Source of the DNA: Nitrosospira sp.
GTDB lineage: Bacteria; Pseudomonadota; Gammaproteobacteria; Burkholderiales; Nitrosomonadaceae
Length of the DNA stretch: 64,000 bases
Direction: 5' to 3'
NCBI GenBank assembly: GCA_013821425.1
Contig: JACDGV010000002.1
Location: 62,001 to 126,000 of the forward strand
In this document: in pieces, positions 38,931 through 51,917 of the stretch
Numbering within the stretch: position 1 is the first letter of the stretch
How the letters are laid out: every line of letters starts with the position of its first letter
Program-made: the position numbers and the translations under genes
Notes under the pieces: generated by a model
Seen by the model: the letters and a program-made list of their open reading frames with translations, nothing else
What the model was told of the DNA's origin: nothing
The model's database searches: none

Positions 38931-40109
38931 TCAATCAGGGTTGATTTCCAGCGCGATAAACTGGGTTAGCTGGGTCTTGGTGAAGTTGTTGTCAGCCACA
39001 AGGATAATGGTGCGTTTGCCGTTAAAGTCCGGCCCCAGGGTGATGCCTTCGATATTACCCTGCGCCAGGACGGAGCCATCCTCGTTTTTCAGTTCCGATA
39101 AATTGAGCAGGAGAGCCTTTCTTACCGGGCGGATACTTGCGCCCACGATCGTCTCCAGACCTGAAACATCGGTGGCGTCGCGCGCGTCCGCGTAGTAAAG
39201 CCGGACAGCATAACCGGTGGATGTGCTGCCGGGTATGAGTGCTCTCAAGGTGAAGGAGCGTTCAATGGCTATGAACTGCCGGTCGCCGATAGCGATGAAG
39301 TCTGTCACCCCGTTAGTTGCAAACCCGATAATTGCTGCGGGGGCGAAAACAACCGGGTCAGTATCATAAATATATTCTGCGGCCGGTTTTCCGCTCTCAA
39401 TGTCGAAGGAAAGGATGCGCGCCCGGGAACCAGCCAGGATACTTGCTGGGGGAGTGTCCTGGATCAGGCCATTTTCCGTGGCGGCATATAGCGTGCTGCC
39501 GTCAACGGATATCGCGAGGCTCTCGAATGCAAGGTTATTATAAATGCCTCTGTCTCCGGGGAATAAGCCGAAGCTGGAACCGCGCGGATAATAATAATAA
39601 GGCACCGCGAAGTCGCGATTATGGCTGCCGTCGAGATTCATCTCGCGCACTGCCGGGTTGCGTGCCCGCGAAATGCTGCGCTGGCCCTCTTCGCACCAGT
39701 AGATTTTATTTCGAGCGACATCAATACGCATGCCTTCCGGGTCCACCGAGCTTTCACTAAAAGCGCCTCCCTCGGGGCGCTCGATCATCGTCACCGCTTG
39801 AAATGTTACGCCAGCCATGCCTGGGATGGCGGAACGCTGAAACTGAGATAGATCCAGAGACAATTCATAGAAACGTGCGCGATTGATTTTGCTCCGGTCG
39901 TCGCTGACGGCCAAATAACGATTGGTAACAGGGTGATAGTCGAGCGATGATAGGCCGCCGATGATAGTACCGTTGAAACGCATATTGTTGGGCACGATCT
40001 GTTGGCCAATATAGTTCAGGGCGAGGGCCGCTGGATCGTCGGCGGCTTGGACGGGGATACAGGAGACGAGATTTGCAGCCAGGATGGCGGATATGAGAGC
40101 ATTCCTCAT
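38931..40109 (-). CDS. Exported esterase-like phytase-family protein
   Basis: A 392-residue precursor with signal peptide (LISAILAANLVSCIPVQA). The mature part follows the esterase-like phytase (DUF4394/phytase-esterase) pattern of a beta-propeller: FNGTIIGGLSSLDYHPVTN, YLAVSDDRS, SVDPEGMRIDVARNKIYW, NNLAFESLAISVDGSTLYAATE, and NIEGITLGPDFNGKRTIILVADNN. Acidic residues in DPEGM and NIEG probably bind calcium. The substrate is unknown; family members are annotated from weak similarity. It is divergent to the ATPase end and lies 307 bases from the oxidase gene. Confidence 0.78.
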   Translation of the reverse strand: MRNALISAILAANLVSCIPVQAADDPAALALNYIGQQIVPNNMRFNGTIIGGLSSLDYHPVTNRYLAVSDDRSKINRARFYELSLDLSQFQRSAIPGMAGVTFQAVTMIERPEGGAFSESSVDPEGMRIDVARNKIYWCEEGQRSISRARNPAVREMNLDGSHNRDFAVPYYYYPRGSSFGLFPGDRGIYNNLAFESLAISVDGSTLYAATENGLIQDTPPASILAGSRARILSFDIESGKPAAEYIYDTDPVVFAPAAIIGFATNGVTDFIAIGDRQFIAIERSFTLRALIPGSTSTGYAVRLYYADARDATDVSGLETIVGASIRPVRKALLLNLSELKNEDGSVLAQGNIEGITLGPDFNGKRTIILVADNNFTKTQLTQFIALEINPD

Positions 40110-40416
40110 GAGGCAGGAATCTGGAATTCTTGGAATTTCTCGACTTTGTCATAAACAGACACGCGGAGGTTGGTGATTTCACCCGCTTTTTTTAGTCTTC
40201 GCGTGGGCACGCTCTAGGCTCCATGGAAACTCAACAGAATACGCGGCAACACATTTCCCAGAGAAAACACTGCGCCGGGCAAGGTTAAAAACTAAAGGTC
40301 AAAGACGCCTCTGAATCGTGCGGAGGTGCAAATGCGCTCCTCCGAGGATTGTTCAATCGCCACCAATGGGCGGTGCAGTCAGCGCCTTTCTCCGCAGAAT
40401 ATCCTGTCTTTACTCT
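40110..40416. other. Gap without gene
   Basis: 307 bases between the phytase-like gene (promoter side) and the 3' end of the multicopper/galactose oxidase gene. I see no gene, clear promoter or terminator; AATTCTTGGAATT near 40121 is an imperfect palindrome. Confidence 0.4.
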
Positions 40417-43400
40417 TTACGACAGGGCTACCATGCTGGCTTCGGATGGCACTCCCTGATTATTGACCACAAAGAGCATGTAAAAACCCGGAGGGGCGAT
40501 ATTCCCATTAGCGGGGGCTTCCGTTTCCACGGTCGTGGCCGTGCGCGAGAGGATCGGCAATTTGACATAACGCTGCCCGGCGTCTGTATGATGAGTCACT
40601 GAAATCGGGGCGATCAATACGACTGACCCGATATCGGCGGGTTGAGGCGTTTCGATCCCAAAAGTGCTGGCATAAACAACGCTTGGGGGTGCTATCGAGA
40701 TAACGGGACGTAATCCCAGGCCCAGATAGCCGGGCGAATAGAGTTCAAGCGAGTACTGGTCCTGTTCCGCTGTGCCCGGAGCCACCCCTCCTGCTGCAAG
40801 GACTTTGCCATCCGGCAGGAGAATGCATACTGAATGATACTGGCGGGGAAAGTTCAATGATGCGCCGGGGGTCCACTTGTCCGTAGCGGGATCATAGATT
40901 TCCGTTTCCAACACAGGAGTAGGCGACCATTTCTGACCGTTACTGTGGCCCCCTACGATGAGTATTTTTCCGTTCGGCAACACTACTGCATTGACATTGG
41001 TGCGCCCAAAATTCATGTCCGCGATACGCCGCCAGGATGACCCAGCGACGCCGCCATTAAATTCAATTACTTCGGCCGTGCTGTTATTGCGCGCCGTGGC
41101 GGGACCCGATACCCCGCCGCCGAAGATATAGAGGCTCGTATGCTCGGGTGTCACAGTCGTGTCGATCATGAGCAGGCTCATTCCTTCCTGGCGGTCATAA
41201 AACTGCTGCTCCCCATGGTTGTTCCAATTGCCGTTATTGGGGCCAGTCATGGTTAGATAAGCCGTTTGCGTTCCAGCAGCGCCGGCCCAACCAGCACGAG
41301 TATAGAAAATTTCGCCCGAGGGAAGGAGATGAAGGCCAGGATACAGCTCATCGAAAGACCTGGCTGCACCCGATACCACCGTCCATGCTCCCCCATCGAA
41401 CACTTCAACTTCTGCCGCGATCGGGTGGCCTCCTGAAAAGGCCAGGACACGTCCGTCGCTCAGGCTTAACGCTGTGGGATACCAGCGCGCGTGCGCCATA
41501 CTTCCCGTGGGAGCAAACGTTCCGGTATCCGGATTTGCCGCATTCGGCGTAAAAATAAAGCAGCGGTTATTGGTATGCCCCAAACCGTTTGTATCCCCGC
41601 CGATCACGAGTAAGCGGCCATCGGGCAGGAATATATGCCCGCTGCAGAACAGGTCTTCCGGCAAGGGAATGATCCCTGTCATGATCTGCTTGGTTGCCGG
41701 GTCCCAGATCCGGGCTTCCAGGGGATAATTTCTTTCTGCTGCTCCTGAAAAAAGCAATACATGTCCTGTGTGCAAAAGCGCGCCGTGGACACTGAAAATC
41801 GTAGAAGACTCGAGCAGTTCCCAGCCGTCTTCGCCATCCCCACCACAAGGATGGTGGCCCACCTCCGGGCACTGGTGCAAGCGCACTTTTGGCAGCTGAT
41901 AACAAATCCGGCTGACTTCGTCCTCGCTCAACTCGACTCGCTGGATAGCGCGTAGCACCGCCGCCATGCCTTCCATCATGTGCATCTCGACGTGGCAATG
42001 AATCAGGAAATCCCCCTGCAACTCGTATTTCCTGCATTTTTTCTTCGTCCGGTCCGAGTACGCGTCGCGACTGTCCGGTGACTCGAATCCTTTTGGCGCT
42101 TGAGATCCCCCGGAATGCGATGATGAAGCCGCATGTTCTATCACCGAACCCGAGCGACCCGCTGTGCCAGACTCAGAGTGCCTGTGTTCCGGGCCGTGCC
42201 CGCTCTCATTTTGATCCCCATTCTTATTCTCAGGCATCGGCTCGTGGTCTTCATGATCTTCACGAGGGTTGCAGATGCAATCAAGTGCCAGAGGCTCCAG
42301 GATTACGGGGGGCACAACCGTATCGGCGACAAATGATTCGGCGGGACCGAGGGACCGCGTGTCAACCCATTCTGTGCCCCACAACCAGCGTTGCCCATGC
42401 AGATGGAAGTTATGCCAAGCCATGCCCAAATCCAGATTGAAGACATACCAGCGCACGCGGATCCCGGACTCAGCTACGATAGTCGGTGTATTTCCGACAA
42501 ACGTTCGCCCGTTAATGGCATATGACTCCAGGCCCGCGCCACTGCGCTCGGTTACGGTATGGGGCTGGTTCCCGGCGTGATTCCAGGTAACCAGCGCGCC
42601 TACCCCTACCGTGATATCGTCGAGTTCAAAGCGGGCGGGGGTGTCGAGGATGTTAACCACGGCGTTGAGAGGGCCGGCGGCGGTAACTCGTACGCGCCCT
42701 TGCATGGGATGAAAACGGCAGTAGTATTCAAAAGTACCTTCCTCAGTGAAGGTAAACGCAAATGAATCACCGGGATCGAGTGAATCGCTGTCGAACACCG
42801 CCTCACCAATATCAACATTCGCAGTAAGGCGGTGAAAAAAGATGGGTACTTCCAGATCTGCTTTTTCGCAGCCCGGATCGCGAACCACAATGCCGCCGAA
42901 CAGCCCTCGCTTTACCACCTCCTCGATATGCATGTGATGGTCGTGGAAGGGCCAGGCGCCGACCGTGTCCTCCCTAACATCAAAGGTGTAACACCATTGT
43001 TCTCCGGGGCAAATGCCGTCGCTGCGATTTGGTCCATCATATTCCTGTACGCCGAAAGGCCACGAACCATCGGAGTCGATGCCATAGTGCAGGCCGTGCA
43101 CGTGGAGACTGTGCGGCTCGCTATCTCCATTCAGCACATGGATGTAAAGCCTTTCCCCCGGCTGTGTGTAGATGACGGTCCCAGGAATACGCCGGTCAAC
43201 ACGAGGTTCATTGATGTCGGCGGCAATGAGCGGAGTATCCTCGATCACGCTGTAGGAAGCGTCCAGGTATTCGCGATAAACGAGTGCGTTGAGCATTCGA
43301 CGCTCCACTTCCGCTGGTGGAATGGTTGCGTCTGCATGTTCCATATTTCTCATGCAGTCAAGGCGGTGTTTGTGATGCTCGGCATCGTCGGGCGCTACCG

Positions 43401-43452
43401 GGCTGTAGTTTGGCATTGCCTCGATTTTCAGGTATATATGTCTCACGTGCAT
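40417..43452 (-). CDS. Multicopper oxidase fused to galactose/glyoxal oxidase
   Basis: A 1011-residue fusion; I start at ATG 43452 behind AAGGAG (GTG 43491 is possible). No signal peptide is evident. N-terminal multicopper oxidase (about 50-540): HSLHVHG (H114, H117, H119), HDHHMH (H170, H172), HNFHLHG (H347, H350, H352) and HCHVEMHMMEGM (H485-C486-H487, H491, M496) supply type 1, 2 and 3 coppers. An extra blue-copper-like C245-x2-H248-P-M250 and H298 lie between. A charged His-rich insert (about 395-470) splits the last cupredoxin. C-terminal kelch/DUF1929 part (about 560-1011) has C603, Y658, Y872, H873 and H954, spaced as the Cys-Tyr radical copper site of galactose and glyoxal oxidases. 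One half makes peroxide in known relatives and the other reduces oxygen to water; the joint reaction is unknown. Confidence 0.88.
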   Translation of the reverse strand: MHVRHIYLKIEAMPNYSPVAPDDAEHHKHRLDCMRNMEHADATIPPAEVERRMLNALVYREYLDASYSVIEDTPLIAADINEPRVDRRIPGTVIYTQPGERLYIHVLNGDSEPHSLHVHGLHYGIDSDGSWPFGVQEYDGPNRSDGICPGEQWCYTFDVREDTVGAWPFHDHHMHIEEVVKRGLFGGIVVRDPGCEKADLEVPIFFHRLTANVDIGEAVFDSDSLDPGDSFAFTFTEEGTFEYYCRFHPMQGRVRVTAAGPLNAVVNILDTPARFELDDITVGVGALVTWNHAGNQPHTVTERSGAGLESYAINGRTFVGNTPTIVAESGIRVRWYVFNLDLGMAWHNFHLHGQRWLWGTEWVDTRSLGPAESFVADTVVPPVILEPLALDCICNPREDHEDHEPMPENKNGDQNESGHGPEHRHSESGTAGRSGSVIEHAASSSHSGGSQAPKGFESPDSRDAYSDRTKKKCRKYELQGDFLIHCHVEMHMMEGMAAVLRAIQRVELSEDEVSRICYQLPKVRLHQCPEVGHHPCGGDGEDGWELLESSTIFSVHGALLHTGHVLLFSGAAERNYPLEARIWDPATKQIMTGIIPLPEDLFCSGHIFLPDGRLLVIGGDTNGLGHTNNRCFIFTPNAANPDTGTFAPTGSMAHARWYPTALSLSDGRVLAFSGGHPIAAEVEVFDGGAWTVVSGAARSFDELYPGLHLLPSGEIFYTRAGWAGAAGTQTAYLTMTGPNNGNWNNHGEQQFYDRQEGMSLLMIDTTVTPEHTSLYIFGGGVSGPATARNNSTAEVIEFNGGVAGSSWRRIADMNFGRTNVNAVVLPNGKILIVGGHSNGQKWSPTPVLETEIYDPATDKWTPGASLNFPRQYHSVCILLPDGKVLAAGGVAPGTAEQDQYSLELYSPGYLGLGLRPVISIAPPSVVYASTFGIETPQPADIGSVVLIAPISVTHHTDAGQRYVKLPILSRTATTVETEAPANGNIAPPGFYMLFVVNNQGVPSEASMVALS

Positions 43453-43883
43453 GATCCCAGTCTCCTTTTTGTAGCGATCATTGATCTTCACCGTTAGATA
43501 AAAGATAGTAGATATTGGGTTAAAAGCAAGGAGTAATGGAGATTACCAGCGCCGTGCTGGGTATGGCGCTACGAGGATTTACAGCCTTGACACTCAAATT
43601 GCCGTGGACTATTAATTTGATTGAAGAAAATTCGGCCTTGAAATTCCTCCGAAAGGAACGGAGCCTGACTGGATGAGTATTACTTCGGGATAGACCCCGT
43701 TTCCTTATATTTACCCATGATGACCCCTACTGAACCGGTTACCAAAGTTAAGGGACAGAATTCTACTGACAACGAGGCAGTCCGATTTCACTATTCTTTC
43801 TTGCCTTTCCTGTTTTTTAAACTATAAAGAAAGGGAGGTGAAGCGGACAGTGAGGTTGCTCCATGGACTTTTGGGAATAAACC
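43453..43883. promoter_or_regulatory. Divergent regulatory region of the copper-oxidase island
   Basis: 431 bases without a gene between the leftward fused oxidase and the rightward unknown protein. It contains the strong promoter at 43587-43615, and a segment GGGACAGAATTCT (43752-43764) like sequences found near REP/transposase debris in related genomes. A paired AAAGAAAGGG occurs just before the 43884 start. Confidence 0.5.
43587..43615 (+). promoter_or_regulatory. Strong sigma-70 promoter
   Basis: TTGACA at 43587-43592, a 17-base spacer, and TATTAA (43610-43615). It points at the gene at 43884 and leaves an untranslated leader of about 260 bases, unusually long for this window. Confidence 0.65.
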
Positions 43884-44618
43884 GTGGAAAAAATACTGGA
43901 AGTCATAGAAGTCGAACTTGCAGTGCTGGAAAGCTTTCCGCCTAAGTTGCGGATCACCGCAGCGGGTACAGTGCGTACCGGGGGGTGGTCCAACCCCAGG
44001 TTGGAGCCATACGTGCATATTCAGGCACCACCCGATGGAATCCATGATTTCGATTTTGTTGCCGACCGCCCTGAAGGAATCGTCACCCAGGTGATTTCTC
44101 CCATCGCAGCCGTTTATACCTGGGAAAATTTTCCAGAAGGTGTAAAGGGGGTACGCGTACATGCTTCAGAAAATTCAAAAACAGCGTGGTTGAAAACGGG
44201 CATGCCTGATCGCCAGCCTAACCGCTTTACTTTTAGCGAATGCAATGGTACTACCCGTATTGAATTTTTTCCCAAGTCGCTAACTCCGTTAGGAACGAGT
44301 GGATCTTCTGCAGATGCACAGCTTGAATACCACGGCGCAGAGGGCCAGCTGATGTTCAGGGGAGAAGATATAACGCAGGAGCAAACCGTGCTTGGTTCGC
44401 TCATCTCCGTGACTCTGCAACCCAATGCGGATGCAGGTGGAGTGGATTTTGCGCTGGTTCTGCCACCAGTCAATCTGGCGGGTCAGGCGCGGCAGCGTTT
44501 TGAAACCGTGGGAATCAAGATGCGTAGTCGCGGGCGCGTGATCGATTCGGCTGGAGCGGAGCTCTCTTACGAGGTATTACTATTGAATGGCGTGGCGGAA
44601 GACATTCCTGTTCTTTGA
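43884..44618 (+). CDS. Unknown protein of the tyrosinase cluster
   Basis: A 244-residue protein starting at GTG 43884 with GGGA nine bases upstream. No signal peptide or membrane segment. The N-terminal part (ELAVLESFPPKLRITAAGTV, YVHIQAPPDGIHDFDFVADR) and the C-terminal part (VTLQPNADAGGVDFALVLPP, RSRGRVIDSAGAELSYEVLL) each look like beta sandwich sequence. I do not recognise the family. It is the first gene rightward of the strong promoter and is followed, at close distance, by the caddie protein and tyrosinase, so it may act with them in copper loading, substrate handling or enzyme binding. That is inference from position only. Confidence 0.75.
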   Translation: MEKILEVIEVELAVLESFPPKLRITAAGTVRTGGWSNPRLEPYVHIQAPPDGIHDFDFVADRPEGIVTQVISPIAAVYTWENFPEGVKGVRVHASENSKTAWLKTGMPDRQPNRFTFSECNGTTRIEFFPKSLTPLGTSGSSADAQLEYHGAEGQLMFRGEDITQEQTVLGSLISVTLQPNADAGGVDFALVLPPVNLAGQARQRFETVGIKMRSRGRVIDSAGAELSYEVLLLNGVAEDIPVL

Positions 44619-44629
44619 AACATATGCGC

Positions 44630-45208
44630 ATGCACCTTGCAGGATGGACAAGCCTCGGAAGTGTCAATGAAAGAAAGCATGTTAATAGCCAATGCCCCTT
44701 TGTTCTATCTGGATTTTTATGGAGGAATTACACTGATGGAAGAGAAAAACGCCACAAGAAAAGCGCGGGGGAAGGTAAGAACCCGGGGTCTGTCAGGGGA
44801 GAGCCGGATGATTCCATCCGTAATCCGGATATCTCTGTTCTTGAGCAGTATTCGCCAACGGAGGGAGCGCAGTCCCATCCAGATTGGGTAAAGGAAAAAT
44901 TCCCCGCGCATGTCGCGCCCCATGGTGGGCACGAAGCGACGAGCGTGCGCGAGCTGACGCATAAGGGGCACAATGTCAAGATCATCACCACCTACCGCGT
45001 TGAGGTGGATGGAAAGCCAGCCGAAATGCACCTTTCCGTGGACGAGGACGGACAAGTGTTCACGCATGCGACACCGTTCGTAACGTATGCTTCCGCAGTA
45101 GACTTGATGCAGGCAGTGATGGACGCGTACCCGGATGACGCGTTTTCCGATTCCGCTTCGCATAACAGCCACGATCACAACCATGATCATGGGGGAGAGC
45201 ACGCATGA
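44630..45208 (+). CDS. MelC1-like tyrosinase caddie protein (start uncertain)
   Basis: The conserved part (about 44890-45170) reads VRELTHKGHNVKIITTYRVE, VDGKPAEMHLSVDEDGQVFT and TYASAVDLMQAVMDAYPDDA, closely following Streptomyces MelC1 (K/G-R-x-I...YEVFVDGxxLHVMxxxDGSWxS...Y.PVPTPRAAARAAVDEL). The tail is His-rich (HNSHDHNHDHGGEHA). MelC1 carries copper to apo-tyrosinase and keeps it in complex. The stop overlaps the tyrosinase ATG (ATGA), as expected for such a pair. The start is unclear: this frame has only ATG 44624/44630 without ribosome site, whereas ATG 44736 with TATGGAGGAATTACACTG lies one frame off. A frameshift near 44750 (after AAA AAC) would join them into about 157 residues. 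Confidence 0.72.
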   Translation: MHLAGWTSLGSVNERKHVNSQCPFVLSGFLWRNYTDGREKRHKKSAGEGKNPGSVRGEPDDSIRNPDISVLEQYSPTEGAQSHPDWVKEKFPAHVAPHGGHEATSVRELTHKGHNVKIITTYRVEVDGKPAEMHLSVDEDGQVFTHATPFVTYASAVDLMQAVMDAYPDDAFSDSASHNSHDHNHDHGGEHA

Positions 45209-46104
45209 TTCGGCGCAATTTCCTCACCGACACCAACGCGGCCCGAATGTACATAGACGGGATTCGGCGGCTGAAAGACCCCGCGCAGTTTCCGTGGCCG
45301 GGGCAGGATGGGTTGTCCATGTATGACGTGTTCGTATTCTGGCATCACCAGTCCATGATGCTGATGACCCCGCCCAGTCAAAACGATCGTAACGCCGCGC
45401 ACTCCGGCCCGTCATTCCTGCCGTGGCACCGCTATTTTCTGATCACCCTTGAGGGGTTCCTGCGCCGGGCAGTGAATGACACTCAGTTCAGAATCCCATA
45501 CTGGGACTGGGCCACCGATGCGGAACTGGATGAACCTGTTACATCATCCATCTGGAGTAACGCGAACCTCGGTCAATTTGCCGGCGGGGATTGGCGCATC
45601 CGCCTGGAGATGAACCTGAGGACCGGCGACTTGCGCCGGGCAAATCGGTCGCTGGAACGCTTCCTCGGCAGGGATGGGCGGCTTCCTCGTCGCAACGATG
45701 TGCGCGCGGTCATCCGCGAGCAATCGGTCTACGACTCGGCGCCGTTTAATTCCTCCTCGGGCGGAATGCGTAATCTCGTGGAAGGCTGGATCGGGAACGC
45801 ACGCATTCACAACAATGTTCACGTCTGGGTTAGCGGGGACATGGCGTTATCATCATCTCCGAATGACCCGGTATTCTTTTTGCATCATTGCAACGTGGAC
45901 CGCATCTGGGCGGCATGGCAGGAAGCGCATCCTGGCTCAACCTACCTGCCCGATATGACAGCGCCGGAGACGCTCCAGTTTCACCGCGTCGACGATGCGC
46001 TTTACAGCATATTCAACGAGACTGTTACTCCGGGGGAAATGGTGGATTACCAGCAGTATTACGAGTACGATAGCATTGCCGATCTGACGGAACTGAATGC
46101 TTGA
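45205..46104 (+). CDS. Tyrosinase (binuclear copper monooxygenase)
   Basis: A 299-residue tyrosinase, close to the length of Streptomyces enzymes. It hydroxylates phenols and oxidises catechols to quinones. CuA ligands: H47 or H48 (FWHHQSM), H66 (NAAHSGPSFLPWHRYF) and H75. CuB ligands: H202, H206 (IHNNVHVWVSGDM) and H228 (FFLHHCNVDRIW). PYWDWATDAELDEP is also typical. No signal peptide, and no extra lid domain, consistent with a separate caddie. ATG overlaps the caddie stop by four bases, so the two are translated together. Natural substrate is unknown. Confidence 0.92.
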   Translation: MIRRNFLTDTNAARMYIDGIRRLKDPAQFPWPGQDGLSMYDVFVFWHHQSMMLMTPPSQNDRNAAHSGPSFLPWHRYFLITLEGFLRRAVNDTQFRIPYWDWATDAELDEPVTSSIWSNANLGQFAGGDWRIRLEMNLRTGDLRRANRSLERFLGRDGRLPRRNDVRAVIREQSVYDSAPFNSSSGGMRNLVEGWIGNARIHNNVHVWVSGDMALSSSPNDPVFFLHHCNVDRIWAAWQEAHPGSTYLPDMTAPETLQFHRVDDALYSIFNETVTPGEMVDYQQYYEYDSIADLTELNA

Positions 46105-48985: not shown

Positions 48986-49879
48986 TTATATGTAGGTATA
49001 CCCGAGTGCAGCGATATCGCGCGTATCCGTCTCGTTCTCGGTCCATGGGTCCATTGTCGCCGCGGCGCCCGCGAGGTTCGGATTTTCCCCGGGATTCGCG
49101 GACTGCCATTCGGCCCAGAGCCGATCGATCTCGGCATGATGCATCCAGAATATCGGATCCGCCGGGGCGGTTTGTATGCTCTGCATTGATCCGCCGACCC
49201 ATACATGCCCTGAATTGTGAATCCCCTCAAGACCTCCCCCAAATACGTTGAAGGTATTATTCGCCATTACCGTATCCACGTCCGACGTATCCGGCAGTAT
49301 CGCTAATGCGCCGATGTTCCGCGTGACCGTATGTGGTCCTGTCATCAAGGTTACGGTAGGGGTAAAGCCGAGCAACCATGGTGGAAACGACTGGTCCTCA
49401 CTCGATTTCCAGTAGGGGATACACACCGTTGGATCTATCATCCGCAGCATTTCCTCCATGCGCAGCAGGTAAATCCGATGCCACGGCAGAAAACGGGGAT
49501 TCGAATGCATCTGATGGGCAGCATTAGCGTGGATATCCACCAACGGGCCGAGTGCGGCTATATTATTGAGCTGAGTAAAGGCATTAAGGAGGCGGTCCCG
49601 TTGATCGGCTGTCAGGGAGCGCTGATTTCTGCGGCCACACTGGCCATTCGTATCATCCCCATCACACGGAACCGGCGGTTTGTAATCCTCCTTGCGCGGC
49701 TTGAAACAGGCATGTTCATATGGGTGCGGGACGTAGGGCGGTGGGTTCTTTGACGCATAGTCGCCGAAGATGCGCTGGTCTGTGTAACGAAGATTCTCCG
49801 GGGGAGCGGAGTGGTCGTGCTCATGGCCGTCCTTCTCATAATCCGGATTCTCATGAGGTGAGCATTTATCTCTTTCCAT
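48986..49879 (-). CDS. Second tyrosinase-family protein
   Basis: A 297-residue type 3 copper protein. CuA: H117 (DIHANAAHQMHS), H125 and H134 (FLPWHRIYLL), with H122 nearby. CuB: H221, H225 (GIHNSGHVWVGGSM) and H248 (FWMHHAEIDRLWAEW). It differs from the first tyrosinase: an N-terminal 90-residue His/Pro/Cys-rich extension (MERDKCSPHENPDY, GHEHDHSAPPE, NPPPYVPHPYEHACF) and no caddie next to it. The extension could carry copper itself. Start ATG 49879 is behind AGGAGAACCCCTA. Activity may be that of a catechol oxidase or polyphenol oxidase instead of a true tyrosinase. Confidence 0.9.
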   Translation of the reverse strand: MERDKCSPHENPDYEKDGHEHDHSAPPENLRYTDQRIFGDYASKNPPPYVPHPYEHACFKPRKEDYKPPVPCDGDDTNGQCGRRNQRSLTADQRDRLLNAFTQLNNIAALGPLVDIHANAAHQMHSNPRFLPWHRIYLLRMEEMLRMIDPTVCIPYWKSSEDQSFPPWLLGFTPTVTLMTGPHTVTRNIGALAILPDTSDVDTVMANNTFNVFGGGLEGIHNSGHVWVGGSMQSIQTAPADPIFWMHHAEIDRLWAEWQSANPGENPNLAGAAATMDPWTENETDTRDIAALGYTYI

Positions 49880-50644: not shown

Positions 50645-51289
50645 TTACCCGCGAGGGCCCGTTTTCTCGTTCTTCCTTCTCTTGTTCCACATGCGTACGT
50701 TTCTGCGTCCGATGCTCACTGCCAGCGCGGCGCCGACGATTGCGAGCGCCATGTCCTTTTGGGCATCCCAAACATCCCCTTGTGTTCCAAGATAAGCAGT
50801 CCCAAGCTCGGGATCGACGAGCATGGCAATCACCGCCTCGATGATTTCAAAAAATCCGCTTAAGGCCACAATTATGGAAGCAGGGAGAACTAGGGCCCAG
50901 AAATTGGCAACTCGCATCCCGCGCACGACCACTTCCTGAACCGGATACGCCATTACTCCAAACCAGAAATGAACGATCCGGTCGAAATGGTTTCGTTCCA
51001 GTTGTAACAGATCTTTGAGCCAATAACCCAGCGGCACTTCCGCGTAGGTATAGTGTGCGCCCACGGCGTGCATGACGAGGAAGAGAAAGATAAGTACATA
51101 GCTAATGTCCGAGAGTGGCAACCGCTGGTAAGTGAAGACCAGTGCGGGCACCGAGGTGAAGACGAGGAGATTTTCGAGCAGCCAGTCGTTGCGTTTGACT
51201 GGCTCGATTGCCGTCAGTATCCAGATGATCGTGTAGCAGATGCAAAGCGCCTGCAGCAGCCTGCGTTCGCGAAACGGCTTTTCATTCAT
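50645..51289 (-). CDS. DUF2238 membrane protein (YjdF-like), copy 2
   Basis: A 214-residue membrane protein with six predicted helices. Family landmarks: the acidic/His stretch FDRIVHFWFGVMAYPVQEVV, FFEIIEAVIAMLVDPELGTA, and YLGTQGDVWDAQKDMALAIVGA, the D-x-W-D-x-x-x-D block of DUF2238. The biochemical role is unknown. The start overlaps the preceding DUF2238 gene by eight bases, so this is a tandem duplicated operon. Long C-terminal basic tail (RRNVRMWNKRRKNEK). Confidence 0.85.
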   Translation of the reverse strand: MNEKPFRERRLLQALCICYTIIWILTAIEPVKRNDWLLENLLVFTSVPALVFTYQRLPLSDISYVLIFLFLVMHAVGAHYTYAEVPLGYWLKDLLQLERNHFDRIVHFWFGVMAYPVQEVVVRGMRVANFWALVLPASIIVALSGFFEIIEAVIAMLVDPELGTAYLGTQGDVWDAQKDMALAIVGAALAVSIGRRNVRMWNKRRKNEKTGPRG

Positions 51290-51917
51290 GGGGTGGTCGG
51301 TATCTAGCGGTGGAACGTTCTCGCCGGTATGTCAACACCATTGCTACAGTAGCACCGAGCAGAGCCGATACCAGGTCCAGTTGCATATCCCATTCGTCGC
51401 CCTGCGCACCGAGCCAGGCGGGACCTGTGCCGGGGCTGACAATCTCCGCCACGAGCGACTCCACGACTTCAAAACCCACGCTTGCAGCGAGAATAAAGCT
51501 CACCGGCAACCAGAATTTCACGCGGCCGCGAAGATTGCTCGTGCGCACGAGGAGTTCGTAAAATGGGTATGCGAGCAACAGACCGAATGCGCAATGTATG
51601 ACTCTGTCATATGGATTCCTGCTCATGGCAAGCGTTTCTTTTAGCCAAAACCCGATTGGCGCCTGTGCGTAGCCGGTGTTTGTGCCAATCGCGTGCAGGC
51701 TGAGGAAAACTGCCATCAGCAGATAGGAAAGATTCGAAAAGGCGAATCGCCGATATGTCGCCACAAGGAGGGCAGCGAAAGCGACGACAAGGATGTTCTC
51801 CAGAACCCAGGTCAGCCAATCGCGGGGGTAGATCGCAGTCGCGCCCCAAATCAGAACGTAACCCGCCACCACCAGTTGCAGGAAGCGGTTTTTGGAAAAT
51901 GGCGGGAGATTAGTCAT
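51282..51917 (-). CDS. DUF2238 membrane protein (YjdF-like), copy 1
   Basis: A 211-residue paralogue of the next gene, with the same layout: YPRDWLTWVLENILVV, MSRNPYDRVIHCAFGLLLAY, FEVVESLVAEIVSPGTGPAW, LGAQGDEWDMQLDLVSALLG. The two share the key Arg-His and Asp-Trp-Asp motifs but differ elsewhere, so the duplication is old. First gene of the minus-strand pair. Function unknown. Confidence 0.85.
   Translation of the reverse strand: MTNLPPFSKNRFLQLVVAGYVLIWGATAIYPRDWLTWVLENILVVAFAALLVATYRRFAFSNLSYLLMAVFLSLHAIGTNTGYAQAPIGFWLKETLAMSRNPYDRVIHCAFGLLLAYPFYELLVRTSNLRGRVKFWLPVSFILAASVGFEVVESLVAEIVSPGTGPAWLGAQGDEWDMQLDLVSALLGATVAMVLTYRRERSTARYRPPHE

Follow-up and report, generated by a model that had tools for sequence, protein, structure and literature searches.

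Why would a single bacterial polypeptide carry both a multicopper oxidase (MCO) and a copper radical oxidase (CRO)? The question is raised by an open reading frame (ORF) of Nitrosospira sp. (assembly GCA_013821425.1, a genome of 3.14 Mb) at 40417 to 43452 of the window, by which we mean the whole 64,000-nucleotide stretch analyzed here (contig JACDGV010000002.1, positions 62,001 to 126,000). An original prediction, made from the letters alone, had read this ORF as a 1011-residue MCO-CRO fusion and had considered such a fusion unusual. The ORF is indeed present and uninterrupted: it is read on the minus strand from 43452 to 40417, starts with ATG and contains 1011 residues with no internal stops, a GTG 13 codons upstream of the ATG being a possible alternative start. 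Sequence comparison and structural models together make it nearly certain that the one chain comprises a two-domain-laccase-like MCO, a blue-copper site in a circularly permuted cupredoxin and a C-terminal CRO. Beyond what had been predicted, we describe the permutation of the cupredoxin, a subclade whose cross-linking Cys is replaced by Ser, and a Variovorax member that also bears LodA, together with nearby tyrosinases. The gene and its parts are as follows.

40417 to 43452, minus strand: gene for the MCO, permuted cupredoxin and CRO; 1011 amino acids plus stop (Pfam, orthologs, purifying selection)
42853 to 43302, minus strand: MCO domain 1, residues 51-200, with predicted trinuclear-site His 117, 119, 170 and 172 (Cu-oxidase_3; ligands kept throughout the 51-row alignment)
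42523 to 42831, minus strand: circularly permuted cupredoxin, residues 208-310, with predicted ligands C245, H248, M250 and H298 (halves match in reverse order; own structure prediction; Foldseek)
41848 to 42522, minus strand: MCO domain 2, residues 311-535, with H347, H350, H352, H485, C486, H487, H491 and M496, the predicted type-1 site and the rest of the trinuclear site (Cu-oxidase_2)
42037 to 42282, minus strand: His-rich, low-confidence loop within MCO domain 2, residues 391-472 (predicted local distance difference test score [pLDDT] below 50 at 396-469)
40420 to 41826, minus strand: CRO module, kelch propeller plus GO-like E-set, residues 543-1011, with C603, Y658, Y872, H873 and H954 (Pfam, GlxA alignment, Foldseek)

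Architecture of the fused chain

A domain search of both halves placed the MCO families in the N-terminal part and kelch plus GO-like_E_set in the C-terminal part. The Pfam matches were Cu-oxidase_3 at residues 85-193, Copper-bind at 226-256, Cu-oxidase_2 from residue 307, kelch, and GO-like_E_set at 915-1009; Glyoxal_oxid_N scored 37.0 bits, just below its cutoff of 37.5. The best NCBIfam model was GlxA, which covered the C-terminal half with 228.4 bits against a cutoff of 800. The predicted fusion is thus backed by Pfam, by comparison of the CRO fold and by ligands that are conserved in relatives.

Relatives were collected by a motif-based scan of a GTDB-based genome collection, which returned 54 loci (numbered with L below). 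Four of these (L065, L089, L101 and L102) were left out, and the remaining 50 plus the window gave a 51-row alignment, in which a few rows stop short at contig ends. The names of the 50 aligned loci place them in Pseudomonadota, Myxococcota, Acidobacteriota, Nitrospinota, Nitrospirota, Actinomycetota, Planctomycetota and Bacteroidota; individual taxon labels can err, since many loci are metagenome bins.

All four His motifs claimed for a complete MCO were found, and their ligands are kept in relatives. The eight His predicted for the trinuclear site of a two-domain MCO (H117, H119, H170, H172, H350, H352, H485 and H487) and the type-1 residues C486, H347 and H491 are present; each His was assigned to one or the other site from known MCO motifs. 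All 51 rows have these 11 residues, apart from L095, which lacks H487 and H491, and residue 496 is Met in 32 rows and Leu in 19. Two of the MCO stretches served as search patterns of the motif scan, and their invariance among the 51 rows is therefore partly built in. A profile census independent of those patterns yielded 21 copies including our own, and in the 20 that were tabulated, with reading frames chosen by the string WHNFH, both MCO and CRO ligands were kept. The 21st copy (L127) does not have this string and, as read by eye, contains all of the ligands. Variation among the 21 was limited to Met or Leu at 496 and Cys or Ser at 603. The census genomes are largely the same isolates as those of the motif scan, so this is a check on pattern bias rather than a fresh sample.

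A two-domain MCO should have only two cupredoxin domains, whereas here a third, permuted one is inserted. With Foldseek, the MCO part matched the Ssl1 laccase (4wtq, TMt 0.71), and matches to ceruloplasmin had mostly large root mean square deviations. Because these matches were weaker than those of the CRO, the MCO assignment comes chiefly from sequence.

The original prediction had noted an extra C-x-x-H-P-M site and a His-rich insert in the last cupredoxin. The site stands, but it is better described as part of an entire plastocyanin/amicyanin-type cupredoxin with its halves swapped, as both sequence matches and models indicate, and its fourth ligand would be H298. Between the MCO domains, at residues ~208-310, the plastocyanin-like C-terminal half (C245, H248 and M250) comes first and the N-terminal half (H298) second. 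When four members were compared with the Pfam Copper-bind profile in native order, the best stretch was the last third of the profile; after the halves were swapped, the match became a single stretch that begins near position 8-13 and ends at position 98 or 99 of the 99. The score was higher in all four (29 to 34, 34.3 to 35.8, 41.3 to 48.6 and 24.4 to 25.8 bits), the gain being small in two of them. Against solved structures, the swapped L074 segment gave one continuous match to 5fc9 and to amicyanin, while the native segment aligned to 5fc9 in two pieces in reverse order. A profile built from 23 members matched amicyanin and a nitrite reductase, again in reverse order.

When residues 208-310 were predicted separately, the model was one compact sandwich with a mean pLDDT of 88.2 (94-98 in the core) and a predicted template modeling score (pTM) of 0.80. 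The top two of 188 Foldseek matches to this model were chains of an engineered circularly permuted azurin (5syd) with a probability of 1.00, although the TM-scores by query of 0.53 and 0.52 and the E values of 0.015 and 0.052 make these matches statistically weak. Another engineered permutant, 5yt7, was the sixth match, and no wild-type cupredoxin was among the best 50 of the 188. The strand order is therefore not that of an ordinary cupredoxin, yet the predicted blue-copper ligands H298, C245, H248 and M250 are all kept in 50 of 51 rows. The sole exception is L095, where the cupredoxin was lost together with MCO residues H487 and H491. The Cys-x-x-His-Pro-Met loop is found in the clade of the window and is one or two residues longer in many other rows. 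It was also observed that H207 (codon 42832-42834, minus strand), immediately before the cupredoxin, is invariant in 51 of 51 rows.

The His-rich insert is likewise real but is not a general feature of the family. A loop of 50-92 residues occurs only in the window clade (Nitrosospira, Nitrosovibrio, Nitrosomonas and one Methylococcaceae bin); its length is 28 in L061 and 6-12, with 0-3 His, in the remaining rows. Judging from the model, it is probably a disordered loop.

The CRO module, its Ser subclade and family distribution

The C-terminal module has the kelch beta-propeller and GO-like E-set of known CROs (PF09118, 85.9 bits; Kelch_6, 73.4 bits). Its Foldseek matches included GlxA (4unm), galactose oxidase (1gof), alcohol oxidase (5c86, TMt 0.83) and glyoxal oxidase (9n3u), with E values of ~1e-34 to 1e-30. 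The residues C603, Y658, Y872, H873 and H954 that had been named as the radical site, with spacings of 55, 214 and 81, agree exactly with the translation. They supply the predicted cross-linking Cys, two Tyr and two His that define AA5 enzymes, and in an alignment with GlxA all five fall on identical residues, those of the GlxA active site; the Cys-Tyr geometry was judged from this residue equivalence and from the fold match. Every one of the 51 rows has Tyr658, while Tyr872, His873 and His954 are present in all 49 rows that reach them, the contig ending first in two loci. Position 676, which by eye we take to lie near Trp290 of galactose oxidase, is not conserved among the rows.

Position 603 is Cys in 30 rows and Ser in 21, the Ser occupying the same column within an altered motif (for example, LWSAEH versus LFCSGH). 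The 20 Ser rows included in the tree form a single clade with support of 100/100, and nine CRO-only relatives that were compared by eye have Cys in the equivalent FC motif. Since the Ser rows form one clade and the CRO-only relatives carry Cys, Ser looks like the derived state. Cys603 is kept in all rows of the window clade. A redox-tuning link between the residue at 496 (axial Met or Leu) and Cys or Ser in the CRO was considered and rejected, as all four combinations occur (19, 13, 11 and 8 of 51 rows).

Rarity of the fusion, as had been claimed, holds in the sense that it is sporadic in genomes, yet it is recurrent, with the search for further fused copies finding members in eight phyla. Of 125 Nitrosomonadaceae genomes in the profile census, 20 contain the full-length fusion, with at least 21 copies in all. 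Full-length copies were also seen in at least 2 of 399 genomes of an order sample and in at least 1 of 398 genomes of a phylum sample, namely our own; these are lower bounds, as two candidates per genome were scored in the order and phylum samples and up to seven in the family census. Six congeners carry full-length orthologs with 79-82% identity, and remnants or broken copies occur in congeners G009, G010, G016, G021 and G022. Between the window and L049 and L051, nonsynonymous divergence (dN) is 0.11-0.13 and synonymous divergence (dS) is 1.6-2.7, the latter near saturation. Each of the three modules has a low dN, the CRO part as low as the MCO part, and the fusion gene is, on this sequence comparison, under purifying selection.

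As to a single origin of the fusion, CRO-only rows sit between fused clades of the tree with weak support (88/63), and the drawn root is a midpoint only. By eye, L086, L090-L093 and L096-L100 have an extra N-terminal domain, which had no Pfam match in the one member tried (L090). No support was found for a mobile element: the IMG/VR match (L022) is a 79% ortholog at the extreme end of a 99.7-kb contig. Plasmids gave no support either: 37 plasmid records matched, and in none of the 37 was 80% of the query found in one place.

Proposed activation of the radical site or possible tethered oxidases

From the chemistry known for such enzymes, we infer that the MCO passes single electrons to O2, yielding water, and that the CRO oxidizes a primary alcohol or aldehyde, yielding H2O2. 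How the two activities might be connected is suggested by fungal and related enzymes. According to one paper, radical oxidases lapse into a nonradical, inactive form, which strong oxidants or a peroxidase with a mediator can restore to activity (PMC10928124). Another describes a cosecreted fungal peroxidase that activates its alcohol oxidase, and electron paramagnetic resonance is said there to support one-electron oxidation (PMC9770985). By this analogy, a chain that combines an MCO with a blue-copper relay could plausibly contain its own oxidant. The MCO would be the on-board one-electron oxidant for the fused CRO, and the permuted cupredoxin would be the electron relay between them. Together they would bring the CRO from its inactive nonradical state into the active Cu(II)-tyrosyl-radical form, and they would restore the radical after its decay, a role filled by a separate peroxidase for the fungal radical oxidases. 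Consistent with coupling of relay and MCO, the only row without the cupredoxin (L095) is also the one without H487 and H491. We give activation and maintenance of the CRO radical by the MCO and relay a probability of roughly 0.37.

Several observations weigh against this proposal. With Ser at position 603 in 21 of 51 rows, a whole subclade has the MCO but no cross-linked tyrosine, and apart from L095 it also keeps the cupredoxin; retention of the MCO without a thioether radical site is not predicted by an activating role and argues against activation as the general function. The full-length structure prediction had a pTM of only 0.58, leaving the placement of the MCO relative to the CRO uncertain. 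No obvious signal peptide was seen in the 51 rows by a simple hydrophobicity scan, which takes the 15-residue maximum within the first 60 residues and is not a signal-peptide predictor. The scan maximum was at most 1.62 across the 51 rows compared with 2.25 for the neighboring phytase-like protein, and values above 1.2 were obtained in four rows only (L058, L079, L088 and L097), in which the starts are uncertain. A broader version of the proposal, a self-activating CRO in which the MCO and a natural permuted relay stand beside a tyrosyl-radical site and which includes a derived, thioether-free copper-tyrosyl branch, we regard as doubtful.

The genes around the fusion suggest a different connection. 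The relevant neighbors in the window are as follows.

43884 to 44618, plus strand: divergent conserved gene, 244 amino acids, putative partner (no Pfam match; adjoins a tyrosinase in L041, L042, L043 and L047)
44615 to 45208, plus strand: small protein with His-rich tail, putative tyrosinase partner (no Pfam match; start uncertain, homology from residue ~41-62)
45205 to 46104, plus strand: tyrosinase (type-3 copper), N terminus not signal-like (PF00264, E value of 1.6e-41)
48986 to 49879, minus strand: second tyrosinase (PF00264, E value of 1e-34)

The group of 244-residue protein, His-tailed protein and tyrosinase adjoins the fusion in L043 and L047 and a fusion remnant in L041 and L042. Of the 20 Nitrosomonadaceae carrier genomes, 9 have a tyrosinase no more than 10 kb from the fusion, and in five of these nine (G458, G474, G476, G512 and G530, all of one genus, g3) the neighboring tyrosinase is the sole PF00264 match of the genome. 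Among 52 loci examined, 10 have tyrosinase neighbors, of several unlike sequence types. In Variovorax sp. YR216, one 1497-residue ORF (L070, 5983-10473) combines MCO, permuted cupredoxin and CRO with a LodA part of the L-lysine epsilon-oxidase type, LodA_N and LodA_C both scoring above cutoff. In an Acidobacteria gp4 bin (L066, 2168-11276), the fusion lies side by side with two tyrosinase ORFs, a gene for LodA and the beginning of another fusion copy.

This neighborhood suggests that the chain may be a pair of independent, tethered oxidases serving one product chemistry, with no electron transfer between MCO and CRO. The MCO and the tyrosinase would produce quinones or phenoxyl radicals and the CRO (and LodA in Variovorax) aldehydes and peroxide, for cross-linking or hardening of a surface or matrix or as a peroxide weapon. 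Such an arrangement would also account for the MCO being kept in the Ser subclade, and it fits that subclade and the neighborhood better than activation of the radical does. It leaves unexplained, however, a second blue copper site in the MCO and its joint loss with MCO ligands in L095. Moreover, the remaining 11 carrier genomes lack a tyrosinase in that 10-kb range, 15 of 20 Nitrosomonadaceae genomes without a full-length fusion have tyrosinases too, and LodA was found in only 2 of 54 loci (L070 and L066). The nine colocated cases share ancestry and are not phylogenetically independent. The tethered-oxidase explanation is tentative, and we hold it nearly equal to activation of the CRO radical.

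Two further explanations are less likely. The MCO and cupredoxin might oxidize Cu(I) and hand copper to the CRO for formation of its Cys-Tyr cofactor, in line with the His-rich loop in the MCO of the window clade, with the extra type-1 ligands conserved in 50 of 51 rows and with the description, in PMC6769254, of periplasmic beta-proteobacterial MCOs as Cu(I)-oxidizing homeostasis proteins. The loop, however, has just 6-12 residues and 0-3 His outside the window clade and L061, and the Ser subclade, which needs no thioether, keeps the module nonetheless, making copper handling improbable. Still more so is a degenerate kelch scaffold attached to an MCO that alone works: although Cys has become Ser in 21 of 51 rows and position 676 varies, every row that is long enough has the two Tyr and the two His, Cys is kept throughout the window clade, and dN is no higher in the CRO than in the MCO.

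Other features of these loci were recorded in passing. Directly downstream of the fusion, a phytase-like esterase gene with a signal-like N terminus lies at 38931-40109 on the minus strand; a phytase-like gene is near the fusion in one congener too (L043 and L049, which are the same contig). Two tandem genes for DUF2238 membrane proteins are at 50645-51917 of the window. A subtilase (S8) gene is near the fusion in L086 (9223-11331) and has a homolog at the end of L049 (2-589), and L086 also encodes a PatG_D/PatG_C protein, a possible link to cyanobactin-type systems. A flavoprotein-like ORF directly follows the L070 fusion and could be a LodB-type partner; the L066 cluster, by eye, also holds a separate MCO with a normally ordered C-terminal cupredoxin. 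A promoter scan of 40050-44000 found none, compared with 2.9 in shuffled sequences, and an intergenic alignment of the window and two congeners showed no clear conserved box.

Comparison with known systems

Although useful as catalysts, CROs become inactive when they have no oxidant to activate them. If activation by the MCO and relay is true, a chain carrying its own oxidant would be a ready-made self-activating catalyst. The Ser subclade makes the role of the Cys-Tyr thioether testable with natural enzymes. Among the matches listed from the open-access literature (titles and abstract starts, most subscription journals lying outside this scope), there was no description of an MCO-CRO fusion or of a circularly permuted cupredoxin.

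The CRO module shares its kelch and E-set domains and its Cys, two Tyr and two His with GlxA-type, galactose, glyoxal and alcohol oxidases (CAZy AA5; 4unm, 1gof, 5c86 and 9n3u), from which the chain differs in that the CRO sits behind an MCO and a cupredoxin and has no obvious signal peptide. With a score far short of the equivalog cutoff of NF052501, the module resembles GlxA, but the protein is not a GlxA. With two-domain laccases (small laccase and Ssl1) and ceruloplasmin-type MCOs it shares, in profile and single-sequence matches, domains 1 and 2 with the motifs HxH, HxH, HxxHxH and HCHxxxHxxxxM; here, by contrast, a permuted blue-copper domain lies between these domains, giving two predicted type-1 sites, and behind them comes a CRO. 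Among the matches listed, none of the PDB chains aligned across the cupredoxin insert.

The tandem pairs of fungal peroxidase and alcohol oxidase, as presented in PMC9770985, likewise combine a radical oxidase with a one-electron oxidant, but there two proteins are secreted and one is a peroxidase, whereas here a single chain contains an MCO. An AA5 alcohol oxidase fused to a CE3 domain, as cited in PMC11267884, is similarly a bacterial CRO in a multidomain chain; its partner, however, is an inactive CE3 domain and not a redox enzyme. Finally, the inserted domain has the four type-1 ligands and the sandwich fold of amicyanin, plastocyanin, the Blue (Type 1) copper domain protein 5fc9 and the engineered azurins 5syd and 5yt7. 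It differs in being a natural sequence with its C-terminal half first, in being embedded in an MCO and, in the window clade, in having a Cys-x-x-His-x-Met loop. If a structure confirms the permutation, this domain would be nature's equivalent of the engineered azurins, with ligands kept across eight phyla.

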